DNA of 64,000 nucleotides from Terriglobia bacterium (GTDB lineage: Bacteria > Acidobacteriota > Terriglobia > JAJPHL01), in the NCBI GenBank assembly GCA_021325275.1, contig JAJPHL010000055.1:62001-126000 (forward strand), read 5' to 3'. Both the position numbers and the translations under genes were made by a program. Below the pieces are notes generated by a model. That model did no database searches, had not been told where the DNA came from, and saw only the letters and a list, made by a program, of their open reading frames with translations. How positions within the stretch are numbered: position 1 is the first letter of the stretch; each line of letters opens with the position of its first letter. Below are positions 29,042 through 63,894 of this stretch, piece by piece.

Positions 29042-29121
29042 TAGCCACCGAGACACCGAGGACACAGAGAAAACAACACCCGACTTTCCCGGTCTCTGTG
29101 TTCTCCGTGTCTCAGTGGCTA
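29042..29121. repeat. Intergenic tandem-repeat hairpin R3 (TAGCCACCGAGA class)
   Basis: Arms of 29 bases, 29042-29070 and 29093-29121, are reverse complements with three mismatches by hand count; the loop is 22 bases. The outer part begins TAGCCACCGAGACAC, the same as R8 at 63829, while the inner part GACACAGAGA matches R1 and R5. It separates the convergent TonB receptor and MacB-like permease genes. Confidence 0.9.
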
Positions 29122-29128
29122 AGATTTT

Positions 29129-30352
<1,224 letters not shown>

Positions 30353-30400: not shown

Positions 30401-31213
30401 CTATTCCTGCTCGCCGTCTTGTGACGCCAGTTCCGATTCCACGCTGGGCAGCGTGGGCAGCACTTCCCTGGCGATCGAGCGCGACGGAACCACTTGATCA
30501 AGGCGAATCCGGCCGTCCTTGAAGATCACCGTGCGCTTCGCGTATGCCGCGATATCCGGCTCGTGCGTCACCATGATGGTGGTGATGCCTTCTTCGTTGA
30601 GATCCTGGAAAATGTCCATGATCTCCACCGATGTCCGGCTGTCTAGATTGCCCGTCGGCTCATCGGCCAGCAAAATCGCTGGACTATTCACGAGCGCGCG
30701 TGCGATGGCGACGCGTTGCTGTTGTCCGCCCGAGAGTTGGCTCGGGAAATGGTGCTCGCGGCCTTTCAATCCGACACGCGTCAGCGCGCGCATCGCCCGC
30801 TCGTGACGTTCTTTCGTCGGAATCGCCGAGTAGATGCACGGCAACTCTACGTTTTCCATCGCCGTGGTCCGCGCCAGCAAGTTGAATCCTTGAAAAACGA
30901 AACCGATGCGCCGGTTGCGGATGTGCGCGAGATCCACTTTGTTCAAAGTGGAAACGTCGGTGCCTTCCAGAATGTACGATCCCTTGGAAGGACGATCGAG
31001 GCAGCCGACGATGTTCATGAACGTCGACTTGCCGCCGCCGGATGCGCCCATGATGGCGACGAACTCGCCTTTGTTCACGTCGAGCGAAACGCCGCGCAGC
31101 GCGTGGACTTTCTGTTCGCCCAGATCGTAGATCTTGTGCACGCCCTCCATATGGATGACGTTGCCGCGGCGCGTGTTGACCTCAGGCGTTGCCGGAATCG
31201 ATGCGGTGGCCAC
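30401..31213 (-). CDS. MacB/LolD-type ABC transporter ATPase
   Basis: This 270-residue ATPase has Walker A GASGGGKST, Q-loop VFQGFNLL, signature LSGGQQQRVAIARAL, Walker B ILLADEPTGNLD and the switch His in MVTHEPDIA. The family core starts at the ATG at 31150. A GTG at 31213 with AGGACGG upstream, just after the adaptor stop, gives better coupling and was chosen, adding 21 residues. The C-terminus has about 30 extra residues after the last helix. It powers the permease encoded downstream. Confidence 0.9.
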   Translation of the reverse strand: MATASIPATPEVNTRRGNVIHMEGVHKIYDLGEQKVHALRGVSLDVNKGEFVAIMGASGGGKSTFMNIVGCLDRPSKGSYILEGTDVSTLNKVDLAHIRNRRIGFVFQGFNLLARTTAMENVELPCIYSAIPTKERHERAMRALTRVGLKGREHHFPSQLSGGQQQRVAIARALVNSPAILLADEPTGNLDSRTSVEIMDIFQDLNEEGITTIMVTHEPDIAAYAKRTVIFKDGRIRLDQVVPSRSIAREVLPTLPSVESELASQDGEQE

Positions 31214-31215
31214 GG

Positions 31216-32823
31216 TTACCGTCCTGGACCGCGTCCGCCCGGTTGTCCGAATCCGCCGCGTCCGCCCGGTTGATTGAATTGTCCTGTGGCCGCGCGATTC
31301 GGAATCGCCATGCCGGTGATGACGTTGTCGCCGGGGTTCAGCGTTCCGTGCAAAATCTCGATGCACGCGGTGAACGTGTAGTCGGTGATGCTGGTGCGAA
31401 CTTCCACCGGCTCCATTTGCTTGTCGCCGACCAGTTTCCAGACGATGTGCCGTTCGATAGCGCCGCGCTGCGGCTTCATAGCCATGCCCGCGGCCAGATC
31501 GGCCGCGCCGCCGGCTTGTCCGCCACGTCCGCCACCGCCTCCGCGCTGGCCGCCAGCGCCGCCACCGCCGGGTCCACCTGCGCCCGGTCCACCGGCTGCG
31601 GGACCGCCTTGTCCGCCGCCACCGCCGCCTGCAGGTGCGCCTTGTCCACCGCCCTCGCCCGAGGACGCCATGCCTTTGCCCTTGCCGCCGCCGGGAATCG
31701 GGATGCCGGCCTTTTGGTAGGCCGCGTTGCGTTCATCGTCGGGAATATCGGGCCGGAAACGCACTGCGCCGTTCGGCAGCTTGATCGTATCCTTCACTTC
31801 GCCGATCGGAATCGTGATGTATGCGGTCATACCGGGCAGCAGTTTGCGTCCGGGATTATCGAAATCCACCACGGTGTCGTAGGTCACCACGTTCTGCACG
31901 GTCGTCGCGTTCAAGCGAACTTCGCGAATGGTTCCGTTGAACGTGTCTTTCGGAAATGCGTCGACCTTGAAACTGACCGGGCCGCCTTTTTTGAGATTAC
32001 CCACGTCGCTTTCGTCGGTGGCCACGTCCACTTGCATCCGGTCGAGGTTCTCGGCGATGGTGAAAAGGGTGGGCGCGGACATCGACGCCGCCACCGTTTG
32101 CCCGACGTCAACCGAGCGCGCGACCACCGTGCCATCGATGGGCACGTAGATCACGGTGTGATCGAGGTTCACTTGCGCGGCATCGAGCGCGGCCTTCTTC
32201 TGCGCCACTTGGGCTTTGGCTTGCTCCACCTGCGCGATCTGCGATTGCAGTTTCGCCTGCGCCTGCTCATACTGCGCTTGGGCGGCTTCGGTCAACGCGT
32301 GGTTCGAATCGAACGTGGCCTGGTCGACTTCCAGTTGCTGCTGTGGAATGATGCCCTGCTTGGTCAAATCCTTGGAGCGATTGAGCGCCAGTTGCGTTTG
32401 CACTTCCATCGCCTTGGCCTTTTCCAGGTTGGCCTTTTGCGTGGCGATGTCGGCGCGTTCCACCATCACCTGCGTCTCCAGCGATTTCTGGTTGGCGAGG
32501 GCATTATCCCTGTCGGCCTTGGCCTGGTCGACCGCCGCTTGAAACAGGGACGGCTCGATGCGCGCGATCACATCCCCCTTGTGCACTTGATAGTTGTAGT
32601 CGGCGTAAAGTTTGTCGATATTGCCGGACACCTGCGATCCCACTTGCACCAAATGCGTGGAGTTGATGGTTCCGGTGGCTTGCACCACGGAGATGACGTC
32701 GCCTTTTTCCACCTTGGCGGTGAAAAAAGTACGCTCTTGCTTGCGAGCCATTGCAACGGCCAATACCACGAGCGCGATCACGGCGGGCAGGCCAATGAAA
32801 ATCAGCCAGCGATTTCGATTCAT
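31216..32823 (-). CDS. MacA/HlyD-family periplasmic adaptor with Gly-rich insert
   Basis: This 535-residue adaptor has an N-terminal membrane anchor (7-25), lipoyl-like halves (GTINSTHLVQVGSQVSGNI and TVIYVPIDGTVVARSVDVG), a long coiled-coil hairpin (about 95-220) and a beta-barrel. The oddity is residues 377-439, about 63 residues made almost only of Gly, Ala, Pro and Gln, inserted before the last membrane-proximal segment; a second short Gly/Arg-rich tail ends the protein. The adaptor would link the MacB-like pump to a TolC-type channel. Confidence 0.9.
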   Translation of the reverse strand: MNRNRWLIFIGLPAVIALVVLAVAMARKQERTFFTAKVEKGDVISVVQATGTINSTHLVQVGSQVSGNIDKLYADYNYQVHKGDVIARIEPSLFQAAVDQAKADRDNALANQKSLETQVMVERADIATQKANLEKAKAMEVQTQLALNRSKDLTKQGIIPQQQLEVDQATFDSNHALTEAAQAQYEQAQAKLQSQIAQVEQAKAQVAQKKAALDAAQVNLDHTVIYVPIDGTVVARSVDVGQTVAASMSAPTLFTIAENLDRMQVDVATDESDVGNLKKGGPVSFKVDAFPKDTFNGTIREVRLNATTVQNVVTYDTVVDFDNPGRKLLPGMTAYITIPIGEVKDTIKLPNGAVRFRPDIPDDERNAAYQKAGIPIPGGGKGKGMASSGEGGGQGAPAGGGGGGQGGPAAGGPGAGGPGGGGAGGQRGGGGGRGGQAGGAADLAAGMAMKPQRGAIERHIVWKLVGDKQMEPVEVRTSITDYTFTACIEILHGTLNPGDNVITGMAIPNRAATGQFNQPGGRGGFGQPGGRGPGR

Positions 32824-32968
32824 GCTTTCAGATCCCTCATCTGGATCGCTCCACTGCCGGGAGCGATCCCCTCAAACCACATGGTAGCAGTTTGGGTAGT
32901 CGTATGGGCGAGCCGCTACTTTTCTTTACCTTTTACCTGGACAGGATGGCCAGACAAGGATTTGAATT

Positions 32969-33039
32969 AACAGGATGGACAGGATGCACAGGATTCGAGC
33001 AAGGCACGTTCTCATCCTGCTTATCCTGTGCATCCTGTT
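32969..33039. repeat. Tandem-repeat hairpin R4 (ACAGGATG class), recruited into a CDS
   Basis: The left arm 32969-32994 consists of three ACAGGAT units; the right arm 33014-33039 is three ATCCTG units. They match as reverse complements at 22 of 26 positions by hand count, with a 19-base loop. Further partial units lie upstream (32939-32968). Unlike the other elements, it lies at the 5' end of a gene and encodes its first 21 or so codons. Confidence 0.88.
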
Positions 33040-33466
33040 GAGTCCTCCGTTGTCGGCACGCGGGCGAGCGCGTTTCAATGGCACGTGGCGGGGGACGTTT
33101 CGTGACATGCCGACTGGAACAGAGCCGCGAACGCGCGACAATCCCGCCGGTGAATCCACACACCCGTTCGAATTGACACTGCACGAAAAGGGACGCTGGA
33201 TCACCGGCGAATTCCGCCAAACCGATGCGCCGGGCCCCTCACAACGCGTGAAGCACGCCGGACGCTTCGGCGATCGCGCGTGCTTCGATGTCATGTCGAG
33301 TGATGGCGAGAACGAAGACATGCGCTTTTGCGTCGTGCTTCAGAGCGGAAATCTCACAGGGATTTGGAGCGGAGGACCGCAAGGCGGTCCGATTCTCGGT
33401 GGAATGGGTCCCGGCGCAAGACTGTTCGAGGTTCGCGCAAAGCGTGTCCCCCGAAAACAACCATAG
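32975..33466 (+). CDS. Small secreted protein whose signal peptide derives from repeat R4
   Basis: This 163-residue protein starts at an ATG inside the left arm of hairpin R4. The left arm encodes MDRMHRIR (basic n-region) and the right arm encodes ILLILCILLS (hydrophobic core); the cleavage site is near PLSA. The mature part (RFNGTWRGTFRDMP, then ELTLHEKGRWITGEF) is a small beta-type domain, not recognised as a named family. It is divergent from the MacA-like gene by 151 bases. Frame is kept through the repeat into a domain with normal coding character, which supports real use of the repeat as coding DNA. Confidence 0.72.
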   Translation: MDRMHRIRARHVLILLILCILLSPPLSARGRARFNGTWRGTFRDMPTGTEPRTRDNPAGESTHPFELTLHEKGRWITGEFRQTDAPGPSQRVKHAGRFGDRACFDVMSSDGENEDMRFCVVLQSGNLTGIWSGGPQGGPILGGMGPGARLFEVRAKRVPRKQP

Positions 33467-33494
33467 AGATCAACGCGAAGATTTGATCGCGTGT

Positions 33495-33878
33495 CTACTG
33501 CGCGGAACTACTCGGCGTGATCGTCCTCTGGAGTTTCGTAACCGCCGCTTCGAACTTTGGTTTCTGATCCTCTGTCAGGATCGCGCGGATCCTGTCCATG
33601 GTTTGACGGCGCACTTCGTGCGCCTGCATGTGCAGCGAGTCGAAATCGCGCGACGCATCGTCGAGAATCGCTTCCATTTCTTTGGTCTGCTGATCGGTCA
33701 GGTTGAGTTCCTGGCGGACTTTTTCGATGACATGCGGGCGGCTCTCGTTCGTCACGGTGATCGCGGCGCGCACGCTGCGCGCCTCCCAATAGTGGTCGGC
33801 GAGCATGCCGGTGATGGTGCCGCAGCCGAACACAAGCAAGGCAAAGATGCGGGAATATGCACGGGGGCTCATGGTCAT
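33495..33878 (-). CDS. Periplasmic LTxxQ-like (Spy/CpxP/metal-sensor) protein
   Basis: This 127-residue protein has an N-terminal membrane or signal segment (about 8-26) and a helical domain with LNLTDQQTKEMEAILDD and ILTEDQKPKFE, the repeated LTxxQ-type pattern of Spy, CpxP and heavy-metal-sensor proteins. It lies 20 bases downstream of the anti-sigma gene, so it may be the signal input or a chaperone output of that sigma system. An ATG at 33872 is an alternative start. Confidence 0.8.
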   Translation of the reverse strand: MTMSPRAYSRIFALLVFGCGTITGMLADHYWEARSVRAAITVTNESRPHVIEKVRQELNLTDQQTKEMEAILDDASRDFDSLHMQAHEVRRQTMDRIRAILTEDQKPKFEAAVTKLQRTITPSSSAQ

Positions 33879-33898: not shown

Positions 33899-34501
33899 CT
33901 AGTCGCCTAGAAGCGCGGCCATCGTCTGTTCGCGATTGGCGTGATCGGTGGCGCTCTCGCTTGCGGGCGCGGGGGTCTCTGAATTCTGCCAGCAGCGCAG
34001 GCAGGAGTGACCGAATAATCCGGTAGCCTCGCTTCCGGTGATCAACGCGGGAGCGTCGTGCTCCACCGGCATGTCGAAGAGCAATCCCGCCGTCGCGCTC
34101 GCTTCGCTCGATTGCAAGCTGAAGGCGTAGCCGCCGGCCAGCACCGCGAGCATCACCGCGGCCACCGCGACTTGACGGATCGCGGTTTGATACGAACTGG
34201 TCAGCCCCAGGAATCCTAAGCTCGACCAGAAAGATGCAGGTGCCCCGGCAGCCGCCAAAGCAGGTTGCCCGGCTGGAAGCCCCTCAATTACTTTCAGGGC
34301 GAAGCCGGGCACTGGTTCCGGCGCCGGATCGGCCTCGGTAACGGCCAGCACTCTCAGCAACCGGCTGCTTTCCATGGCGTCATTCACCACTTCCTGGCAG
34401 GAACTGCATTCCGTCAGGTGCTTGTCCAGCGAGTCCTGGAGTTGAGCCGACAGACGGCCCTCCAGGTATTTTTCCAAGTTGTCGTTCAGAATCGTGTGCA
34501 T
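33899..34501 (-). CDS. Zinc-finger-type transmembrane anti-sigma factor
   Basis: This 200-residue protein has the ZAS motif His28-x3-Cys32-x2-Cys35 (HLTECSSC) in its N-terminal cytosolic domain and a TM helix near residues 103-122 (VAVAAVMLAVLAGGYAF). The periplasmic tail is short and contains two cysteines (HSCLRC). It would hold the ECF sigma encoded upstream. The gap to sigma is 91 bases. Confidence 0.88.
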   Translation of the reverse strand: MHTILNDNLEKYLEGRLSAQLQDSLDKHLTECSSCQEVVNDAMESSRLLRVLAVTEADPAPEPVPGFALKVIEGLPAGQPALAAAGAPASFWSSLGFLGLTSSYQTAIRQVAVAAVMLAVLAGGYAFSLQSSEASATAGLLFDMPVEHDAPALITGSEATGLFGHSCLRCWQNSETPAPASESATDHANREQTMAALLGD

Positions 34502-34592: not shown

Positions 34593-35261
34593 CTATTCCG
34601 ACTCCGCGAAATCCGGACGCAACGCCGGATTCTTGCGCGCCGCCTTCATCAGCTTCTGGCGCGCGCGGAACAACTTCACTTTCACGGTGTTTTCGTTCAT
34701 GCCGTTCATCGCGGCCAACTCTTCCACCGAGTATCCATCCACTTCTTTCATCATCAACAGCGTCCGCTCTTCTTCCGACAAGCGCTCCATCAAGCGCATC
34801 ACATACTGGCGCTCGGCCATGGTGTTGTCGACGGCCTGCGATCCCGACTGGCGGATGTCTTCCACGTCTCCAACGCGACGCGCTTCATCTTCACTCAAAT
34901 CGGACTCATAAGTGAGTTTGCGGACTTTCTGCTTGCGCAGGTAGTCGTAGCACTCGTTCACGGTGATCTTGTACAGCCACGTGACGAGGGACGAGCGGAA
35001 ATCGAAGCCCTTCAGGGCGAACCATACTTTGGTGAACACCTGTTGGGCGATATCCTCCACGTCGTTGCGATTCCGCAGCACGCCGTGAATGATGGAGAAA
35101 ACCTTCGACTGATACTTCTCGATGAGCAGACGAAAAGCCGCCTGATCGCCTTCCTGCGCGCGGCGAACAAGAGCCACTTCCGGGCTGACGTTAGGCTCCA
35201 CTTTGTGAGTCGCACTGCTTCTGATCGCAATGCCGATTCCCGGATTCAGCACCATCTCCAT
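34593..35261 (-). CDS. ECF (RpoE-type) sigma factor
   Basis: This 222-residue sigma has region 2 (FRLLIEKYQSKVFSIIHGVLRNRNDVEDIAQQVF) and region 4 (LSEEERTLLMMKEVDGYSVEELAAMNGMNENTVKVKLFRARQKL). It is first in an operon with the anti-sigma and LTxxQ genes, the standard order for envelope-stress ECF systems. The region upstream of 35261 shows no clear autoregulated promoter by eye. Confidence 0.93.
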   Translation of the reverse strand: MEMVLNPGIGIAIRSSATHKVEPNVSPEVALVRRAQEGDQAAFRLLIEKYQSKVFSIIHGVLRNRNDVEDIAQQVFTKVWFALKGFDFRSSLVTWLYKITVNECYDYLRKQKVRKLTYESDLSEDEARRVGDVEDIRQSGSQAVDNTMAERQYVMRLMERLSEEERTLLMMKEVDGYSVEELAAMNGMNENTVKVKLFRARQKLMKAARKNPALRPDFAESE

Positions 35262-35317: not shown

Positions 35318-36523
35318 TCAGCCGTGCACGGCCCCTACCAGTCGATTTGCCAACCGCCCTAACTCACTCAATCCCTTGGCGATATCCGCTTCCGACTCGC
35401 GCGAGTATGCCAGGCGCACCGTGCGCGCCGCCTCTGCGGCGTCGAAGTGTCCTACAAAGAAGCAGTTACCGGGCATAAAGGCTACGCCCGACTCGAGCGC
35501 CGGAGCCAAAAGGGCTTGGGTGTCGGTGTCCTCCGGCATCTCCAACCAGAAAAAGAATCCGCCCTTCGGGGTAACCCACCGCGTTCCCGGAAAATGCTCC
35601 CGCAGTGCCTTTTCCATGGCGTCCCGGCGGGACTTGTAGACTTGGCGCAAGCCGGGAAGCCGCGCGGCAAAGTGTCCGCGGACGATGAACTCGTTCACCA
35701 GAATCTGCGTCAGCGACGACGTGAACATGTCGGCGGTTTGCTTCACGGTCTCAAGCAACTCAGTTGTCTTCACCGGAGCGGCGATCGCCGCCACGCGTAA
35801 TCCCGGTGCGATGGTCTTCGAAAACGTCTGCATGTAGATGACGCATCCGGAGTGATCATGCGCCTTCACGGGCACAACGTCCGCCGTGCTGCCTTCGAAC
35901 ATGATTTCGCCGTAGGCGTCGTCCTCGACGATCCAGAAGCGATAACGCTCGGCCATTTCGACCAGATGCCGGCGCTTCTCAACCGACATCAGCACGCCCG
36001 CGGGATTCGCGAAGTTCGGCGTGACGTAGAAAAACTTGGGACGTTCGCGCTTCACAATGCGTTCGAGCGCCTCGAGGTCGGGACCATCAGCCAAAACCGG
36101 AATACCTTCCAGCCGCGCGCCTAAGTTCAAGAACGCGCCGCTCGCACCCGGATACCCCGGCGACTCCATCAGCACGAGATCGCCAGGATCGATCAGGATT
36201 CGCGCGACCAAGTCGATCGCTTGCTGCGATCCCGCGGCGATCAGCAAGTTCTCCGGCTTCACGCCGGCGACGCCGCGGCCGTCGAGATATTTCGCGATGG
36301 TCTCGAGCAGCGGGTGATAACCCTGCGTCTGTCCGTATTGCAGGGCTTCGGCGCCGCGCGACTCCAGAATCTCGGCGGCGAGCGCGGTCAACTCGGCCTG
36401 AGGAAACGTCGCGGAGTGCGGCATGCCGCCGGCGAAGGAGATCACCTTCTTGCCGTGGATCGCTTTGCTCACGGCGCGAATCGCAGACGGTTGGAGGTTT
36501 TGGGCGAAGTGAGAGTATTCCAT
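35318..36523 (-). CDS. PLP-dependent aminotransferase, MocR/LysN-like class I fold
   Basis: This 401-residue enzyme has the class I/II aminotransferase fold: ISFAGGMPHSATFP near the N-terminus, NPAGVLMS, EDDAYGE, and the PLP lysine in TFSKTIAPGLRV. It resembles 2-aminoadipate transaminases (LysN) and the enzymatic half of MocR regulators but has no GntR domain. The ATG at 36523 precedes the family core; upstream codons in the same frame lie in repeat R5 flank. The substrate is uncertain. Confidence 0.9.
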   Translation of the reverse strand: MEYSHFAQNLQPSAIRAVSKAIHGKKVISFAGGMPHSATFPQAELTALAAEILESRGAEALQYGQTQGYHPLLETIAKYLDGRGVAGVKPENLLIAAGSQQAIDLVARILIDPGDLVLMESPGYPGASGAFLNLGARLEGIPVLADGPDLEALERIVKRERPKFFYVTPNFANPAGVLMSVEKRRHLVEMAERYRFWIVEDDAYGEIMFEGSTADVVPVKAHDHSGCVIYMQTFSKTIAPGLRVAAIAAPVKTTELLETVKQTADMFTSSLTQILVNEFIVRGHFAARLPGLRQVYKSRRDAMEKALREHFPGTRWVTPKGGFFFWLEMPEDTDTQALLAPALESGVAFMPGNCFFVGHFDAAEAARTVRLAYSRESEADIAKGLSELGRLANRLVGAVHG

Positions 36524-36587
36524 CGGTGCTTTAATCTTACGCCAAATCTGCGGGCCCTTTGGCAATCCGCGTAACACAGGCAAGTTC

Positions 36588-36685
36588 GACACAGAGGACA
36601 CAGAGAACTCAGAGGACACAGAGAACGTTCATCTTGGGTTGAAAAACCTCCGTGTTCTCTGTGTTTCTCCGTGTGCTTTGTGGTG
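36588..36685. repeat. Intergenic tandem-repeat hairpin R5 (CACAGAG class)
   Basis: The left arm (36588-36626) has three or four ACACAGAG units and the right arm (36648-36685) has the complementary CTCTGTG/CTCCGTG units, with a loop of about 20 bases. It lies between two genes transcribed in the same (minus) direction, so it is not limited to convergent gene ends. Class as R1. Confidence 0.85.
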
Positions 36686-38440: not shown

Positions 38441-38518
38441 AGTCCTTTAGTGCTGAGTGCTGAGTGCTGAGTGCTGCGAGGCGCCGACTCAGCACTCAGG
38501 ACTCAGCACTCAGCACTG
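38441..38518. repeat. Intergenic tandem-repeat hairpin R6 (GTGCTGA class)
   Basis: The left arm (38441-38476) has four 7-base GTGCTGA units in a row, and the right arm (38488-38518) has the complementary CAGCACT units with one CAGGACT variant. The loop is only 11 bases. It fills the gap between two same-strand genes. Sequence is unlike R1-R5 but the architecture is identical. Confidence 0.9.
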
Positions 38519-63773: not shown

Positions 63774-63828
63774 CGCGTACACCCGGTATATGCAGGAAGT
63801 GAGGTTTTTTCGCGGACAAAAAAGATTC

Positions 63829-63894
63829 TTAGCCACCGAGACACGGAGAACACCGAGAACCCGGGATTGGTTTTCTCGGTGTCTCGGTGGCTAA
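63829..63894. repeat. Intergenic tandem-repeat hairpin R8 (TTAGCCACCGAGA class)
   Basis: The left arm 63829-63859 and right arm 63873-63894 pair along TTAGCCACCGAGACAC and CGAGAA, with a nine-base unit extra in the left arm. The outer sequence is the same as R3. It separates two minus-strand genes (the sigma gene and a partial CDS). Confidence 0.9.

Follow-up and report, generated by a model that had tools for sequence, protein, structure and literature searches.

A repeat hairpin at the start of a reading frame

The window analysed here is a 64,000-nt stretch of contig JAJPHL010000055.1 from a Terriglobia bacterium (assembly GCA_021325275.1). At 32970–33038, with no strand assigned, it holds a hairpin repeat made of three ACAGGATNN units, a short loop and three inverted ATCCTGTNN units, and an open reading frame (ORF) of 163 codons begins inside this repeat and ends at 33466 (stop codon 33464–33466). 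The three ACAGGATNN units form the left arm (32970–32994) and the three ATCCTGTNN units the right arm (33014–33038), with base pairing reaching a few bases past the repeat at either side. Over 32950–33060 the strand folds at −53.2 kcal/mol (z −7.3), a stability equalled by none of 200 shuffles, and the 16-mer ACAGGATNNACAGGAT, with up to two mismatches, is present in 8 copies in the window as against 0.13 expected from shuffles. Each hairpin unit is 9 bases, or three codons, long: AGG-ATN-NAC (R-M/I-x) in one arm and ATC-CTG-TNN (I-L-x) in the other.

Upstream of the repeat, the frame is shut by an in-frame TGA (32963–32965; this and the other sites of the ORF are on the plus strand). The first and second possible starts, ATG 32975–32977 and ATG 32984–32986, share one frame and both lie in the left arm; between 32984 and 33107 there is no further in-frame ATG, and ATG 33107 is inside the mature domain. 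Judged from these sites, ATG 32984 is the likelier start, because a Shine–Dalgarno-like AGGA in the first repeat unit (32972–32975), standing 8 bases before it, is better spaced and pairs better (−6.5 kcal/mol) than the weak Shine–Dalgarno-like AAGGA (32956–32960), which lies 14 bases from ATG 32975 (−4.7 kcal/mol). For these duplex energies the anti-Shine–Dalgarno octamer was assumed rather than derived from this genome.

A predicted signal peptide coded by the repeat

The repeat codes for residues 1–22, MDRMHRIRARHVLILLILCILL, in which a basic n-region precedes a strongly hydrophobic core. The n-region, MDRMHRIRARH (32975–33007), comes from the left arm and the loop, and the h-region, VLILLILCILL (33008–33040), from the end of the loop and the right arm. 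With a net charge of +3 before the h-region and a mean Kyte–Doolittle hydropathy of 3.9 over its 11 residues (3.91), the peptide has the basic n-region and hydrophobic h-region of a Sec signal; the highest value among 49 window ORFs is 3.02. The initial annotation had placed ATG 32975 in the left arm, read MDRMHRIR from that arm and ILLILCILLS from the right one, and concluded that the repeat supplies the start codon, n-region and h-region. The coordinates and the translation (residues 1–8 and 14–23) agree with it.

The c-region, SPPLSA (33041–33058), is outside the repeat units. Signal peptidase I favours small residues at −1 and −3; here LSA precedes R29, with A at −1 and L at −3, and cleavage after A28 would be possible. 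A lipobox has G, A or S before its Cys, and a lipoprotein signal for signal peptidase II was rejected on that ground, as the sole Cys of the signal lies in LILC (residues 16–19) with L at −1. No other signal was found after the repeat in the mature-domain ORF.

A conserved domain, predicted to be a beta-barrel, follows the repeat

By homology and structure prediction, residues 29–163 (33059–33463) form a mature domain with a predicted beta-barrel fold. The family was reached through a class-wide search, from a weak match (L066, E 0.0056) to four relatives, L096, L097, L091 and L066, and the C-terminal domains of L092–L094. A profile built from L096 and L097 alone, both from other genomes, matches 32966–33463 (E 3.8e-19) and none of the other ORFs among the 580 of the window. 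The four-relative profile matches the window protein at E 5.2e-12, and the alignment of L096 with that protein covers 149 columns at 36% identity (E 1e-21). The profile match starts after the repeat-coded part, and the conserved motifs GTWRGTF and GxGARxFxVxAxRVP are retained in the window protein, in keeping with the earlier claim that the frame continues into a normal mature domain. From sequence comparison we judge the mature domain to be a genuine conserved gene product, a conclusion to which codon usage by itself would not lead. By codon usage, the frame of the mature part is nonetheless the best of six there, and two antisense ORFs, 32926–33321 and 32933–33220, were rejected on negative scores.

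With a five-member profile at E 0.001, 6 of 399 class genomes match, the genome studied here among them; at E 0.01, 7 of 8 selected genomes match, and at E 1e-5 this genome is the sole match among 396 phylum genomes. Direct searches with the mature domain, over 60 relatives, by a contig pattern scan (43 matches, none confirmed) and over 399 class genomes (E ≤ 1), returned mostly chance matches. The other candidates inspected from the class-wide search were likewise judged by eye to be chance, with the exception of L073, a related-looking secreted protein. The genome holds no paralogue of the mature domain at E 0.001, the window protein belongs to no Pfam or NCBIfam family and has no Pfam match, and the five family members, scanned against Pfam, gave no match better than E 0.08. 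In L093 and L094, from two genomes, the barrel domain is the C-terminal part of a 284-residue frame.

AlphaFold2 modelled the single sequence as an N-terminal helix and eight strands with a predicted local distance difference test score (pLDDT) of 65.6; with nine sequences, pLDDT was 79.0 and the predicted template modelling score 0.67. The helix spans residues 3–22 and 4–21 in the two models, both of which also have beta strands. Foldseek and VIA-align 2 comparisons of residues 29–161 returned small beta-barrels (designed barrels, avidins, a quinohemoprotein amine dehydrogenase domain and Cap15) with Z of about 10–12. The mature part is therefore predicted to be a streptavidin/lipocalin-like beta-barrel, a statement of fold from which no function follows. 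Identity with Cap15 of the cyclic-oligonucleotide-based antiphage signalling systems (CBASS) was rejected: the resemblance is one of fold only, and PADLOC is blank for the window protein, its matches to neighbouring genes being an ATP-binding cassette (ABC) ATPase, a MacB-type permease and sigma-factor overlaps.

Relatives carry unrelated signal peptides

The four relatives L096, L097, L091 and L066 start with short ordinary signal peptides, MRLAPTLLWALLASPAS, MRLILAAAFLGWSCPLVFA, MLPLIFSLQLLLGA and MCTLAAIAVLALASVAS, which by eye end just before the GxWxG motif and are unrelated in sequence to the repeat-derived signal. Their hydrophobic cores have mean hydropathies of 1.9–2.6, against 3.9 in the repeat-derived core. 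ACAGGAT is absent from the 120 bases upstream of all four; one copy occurs in L097, roughly 700 bases downstream of the gene. L229 and L106 show that secreted proteins of this plan form a wider set.

The initial annotation had proposed the de novo origin of a signal peptide and a comparison of mature-domain relatives to examine it. That comparison supports a repeat-coded signal distinct from those of the relatives but not its de novo origin, since the four relatives already carry ordinary, unrelated signals before the GxWxG motif, and replacement is probable. Because these signals stand directly before the same motif, secretion is most likely ancestral, and the repeat would have replaced the n- and h-regions of an older signal. 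An upstream frame, MVAVWVVVWASRYFSLPFTW..., which ends at the left edge of the repeat, was considered as a displaced old signal, but it is in another frame and we make no such claim for it. A synteny search with the anti-sigma gene gave weak partial matches only.

The repeat family in this genome and elsewhere

Across the 6.86-Mb genome, the 16-mer has 48 matches with at most one mismatch, and a reversed control has 0. Grouped by hand, the matches fall into about 23 places, 22 of which were examined (20 and the two in the window). Clear arrays occur at 19 of these, in 11 with both arms. At 15 of the 22 there is no overlap with a called gene, the present locus included, its ORF being uncalled, and many copies lie no more than a few tens of bases from where a gene ends. 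In exported-protein genes behind other copies (L036, L040 on the minus strand, L047, L048 and L051), the start and signal are, by eye, the gene's own and lie downstream of the repeat. The arms are in phase in 10 of the 20 oriented hairpins, and in 9 of the 20, the present case included, an arm ATG reads through the right arm; four of the read-throughs are long, the present case among them. As second cases, L051 and L049 were rejected: both had Pfam matches, but an own Met follows the repeat (in L051 with a signal peptide) and the best-matching Pfam stretches likewise start beyond it. L047 on the plus strand, rejected too, has no Pfam match. At L040 (2130–2990, minus), L048 (414–3077, minus), L051 (2906–4618, plus) and L049 (1969–3078, minus) the longest ORF starts in or crosses repeats; these are probably mis-annotated N-termini, with the likelier start, marked by an own signal peptide or the start of a domain, following the repeat.

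A scan of a wider sequence collection found at least 117 stretches, and 80 loci (L108–L187) were analysed. The sample is biased, because the scan pattern demanded an ATG in the left arm, and the figures hold among the matches listed: 182 oriented hairpins, 83 in phase and 37 read through, 8 of the 37 for at least 40 codons past the repeat. Seven of those 8 (L154 left out) were run against Pfam and had no match. When the 9 read-throughs here and the 37 elsewhere are taken together, 24 of 46 have signal-like charge and hydropathy. The repeat thus yields signal-like peptides easily by chance, because its in-frame units read R-M-x and I-L-x. We put the chance of a fitting leader arising by accident very roughly at 0.08 (9/20 × 1/3 for the frame × 24/46, in sets that include this case). 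Of the cases followed up, only this one runs into a conserved domain with no other start, and none of the others is a convincing second case.

The repeat is present in 9 of 61 genomes (this one and 60 relatives) and absent from the only other genome of the order in that set; genomes of genus g8 have 85–199 matches each. By record titles, the ACAGGATNN/ATCCTGTNN hairpin also occurs in distant taxa (Chloroflexi, Planctomycetes, Elusimicrobiota, Spirosoma, Thiobaca and Acidobacteria) and in Archaea (Methanoperedens and Methanosarcinaceae). Y1 transposases of the repetitive extragenic palindromic (REP) type were considered as movers of the repeat and found no support: 7 of the 9 genomes with the repeat have them, as do 42 of the 52 that lack it, and none of 8 stretches holding such transposase genes has the repeat. 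Within the searches made, we found no publication dealing with this repeat or with a signal peptide derived from it.

Origin of the repeat-coded signal

We favour, with a probability of about 0.6, the reading that a dispersed repeat took over the start of an exported beta-barrel gene and replaced the n- and h-regions of its signal peptide. It is built on the computed identity of the repeat, its frame, the lack of another usable ATG, the homology of the mature domain and the unrelated signals of the relatives. A copy of the dispersed hairpin repeat with its 9-bp period would have reached the 5′ end of the gene by insertion or recombination, with loss of the ancestral n- and h-regions. The left arm would now give the Shine–Dalgarno-like AGGA, the start codon (ATG 32984 is likelier than 32975) and the basic R-M-x n-region, and the right arm the hydrophobic I-L-x core, with the c-region and cleavage site coming from outside the repeat. 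The protein would then be exported via Sec, perhaps through the signal recognition particle since the core is unusually hydrophobic. Translation, export, cleavage, the order of events and replacement rather than first acquisition are what we infer here.

Gain or change of an export signal is seldom caught in sequence, and at this locus one can still recognise where the new signal would have come from. The relatives show another, probably older state, and the three-codon period of the repeat shows why the signal could work. If expressed, the gene would be a clear example of repetitive DNA co-opted for protein targeting, at the cost of a start inside a strong hairpin, which could possibly also control translation.

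Several observations weigh against this reading. Both starts and the nearer Shine–Dalgarno-like site are buried in the hairpin, and the fold energy at ATG 32984 is −42.1, compared with a mean of −22.9 (standard deviation 7.2, minimum −43.7) for 55 called genes; an equal short window at ATG 32975 gives −29.6. A search of 32700–33600 revealed no sigma-70-like promoter. The mature part scores poorly in codon usage: it reaches 0.045 per codon where 33 training ORFs average 0.20, it is outscored by 22 of 70 spurious ORFs, and the codon-based gene caller missed the ORF. The signal peptide is predicted from charge and hydropathy, and a signal-like peptide is inherent in the repeat, as the 37 read-throughs among the 182 hairpins listed elsewhere illustrate. 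Finally, the arrangement is known in one genome, which is the only match among both the 61 genomes compared and the 396 of the phylum.

The main rival is that the repeat, together with a deletion, destroyed the old start and signal and left the leader as a by-product, so that the gene is a young pseudogene or hardly expressed. The strongly folded start, the weak codon usage, the inherent in-frame reading of RMx and ILx and the lack of known conservation in any close relative would all fit such a decapitated gene, yet its 163 codons stay open, both conserved motifs are kept and a fitting leader would be expected by accident in only about 0.08 of cases by our rough inference. We consider this explanation unlikely, while giving it far more weight than the two that follow.

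The true start might instead lie after the repeat, at TTG 33038 or TTG 33050, making the product a leaderless cytosolic protein and the repeat mere upstream DNA. Those TTG codons are there, and most copies of the repeat stand before genes and not within them. This is improbable, as all four relatives with a readable N-terminus have a signal peptide at this place and no ATG occurs between the repeat and 33107. Least probable of all is that the hairpin was selected as an RNA or DNA structure (such as a transcript stabiliser or a control element between divergent operons) with its coding effect secondary: the arms are complementary even at the variable NN positions in several of the 11 two-armed copies of this genome (for example L049 and L051) and the family is spread across Bacteria and Archaea, but no terminator-like site was scored at the hairpin, its only Rfam match, to a plant microRNA family, is sub-threshold (22.2 bits, where the gathering score is 75), and such selection would be compatible with the replacement of the signal and not exclusive of it.

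A broader proposal, that the ACAGGATNN/ATCCTGTNN hairpin is a pre-adapted, portable signal-peptide cassette and a recurrent source of new or replacement signals across many phyla, seems doubtful to us. Under it, a single insertion with in-phase arms would supply a Shine–Dalgarno-like site, an ATG, a basic n-region and an I-L-x core.

Comparison with known repeat insertions

The closest precedent is Yersinia YPO1552, in which, according to the section of Delihas 2007 (PMC2759123) on this gene, an RU-2/YPAL repeat forms residues 1–30 of a predicted 41-residue signal peptide; a review (PMC2229807, Delihas) covers both YPO1552 and the Rickettsia elements. According to PMC2759123, relatives of YPO1552 in other genera have unrelated signal peptides and the signal is a prediction only, as here. 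Two features of that case recur at our locus: many, mostly intergenic repeat copies (the 48 matches, about 23 places and 15 of 22 outside called genes above) and relatives with unrelated signals (L096, L097, L091 and L066). Our repeat is in frame at the N-terminus, where a signal peptide is predicted from charge and hydropathy. RU-2, about 168 bp long, is reported in the passages on it from Yersinia and Erwinia (PMC2759123), whereas the ACAGGATNN/ATCCTGTNN family is found across phyla. The present element is a 69-bp hairpin of 9-bp units in which one arm gives the n-region and the other the h-region, with a Shine–Dalgarno-like site and start codon besides. By analogy, we regard the present case as the same kind of event as YPO1552 with a different repeat.

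Rickettsia palindromic elements, described in the relevant parts of PMC2229807 and PMC10969869 as 105–146 bp long and carried in frame within proteins as tolerated inserts, are likewise palindromic repeats that preserve the reading frame of the protein genes in which they lie. The repeat here differs from them in being 69 bp long and N-terminal and in giving a start and a targeting signal. In RU-1f/ERIC fusions, a hydrophobic-rich repeat frame similarly yields predicted membrane proteins, mostly at small loci of doubtful function as the text on them in PMC2759123 has it. They resemble our case in that a hydrophobic repeat frame gives predicted membrane or exported proteins; here, in contrast, a conserved mature domain follows the repeat.

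Neighbouring genes and other repeats in the window

Divergent from the repeat-started ORF is an HlyD/MacA-type membrane-fusion gene (31216–32823, minus strand), which stands with genes for an ABC ATPase (30401–31366) and MacB (29129–30352). Convergent with the ORF is an LTXXQ-motif gene (33495–33878, minus strand), followed by a zf-HC2 anti-sigma-like gene (33899–34501) and an extracytoplasmic function (ECF) sigma gene (34593–35261).

A second repeat family with a 9-bp period, CACAGAGNN, lies at 1821–1920, 29042–29124, 36582–36674 and 63827–63860 and includes inverted copies. The longest form of an aminotransferase ORF (35318–36619, minus strand) starts at 36619 inside a repeat of this family, and an annotator could therefore assign it a repeat-coded N-terminal extension. 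At 38449–38517, near ORF ends, lie adjoining heptamer arrays of AGTGCTG (×4) and ACTCAGC (×4.4).
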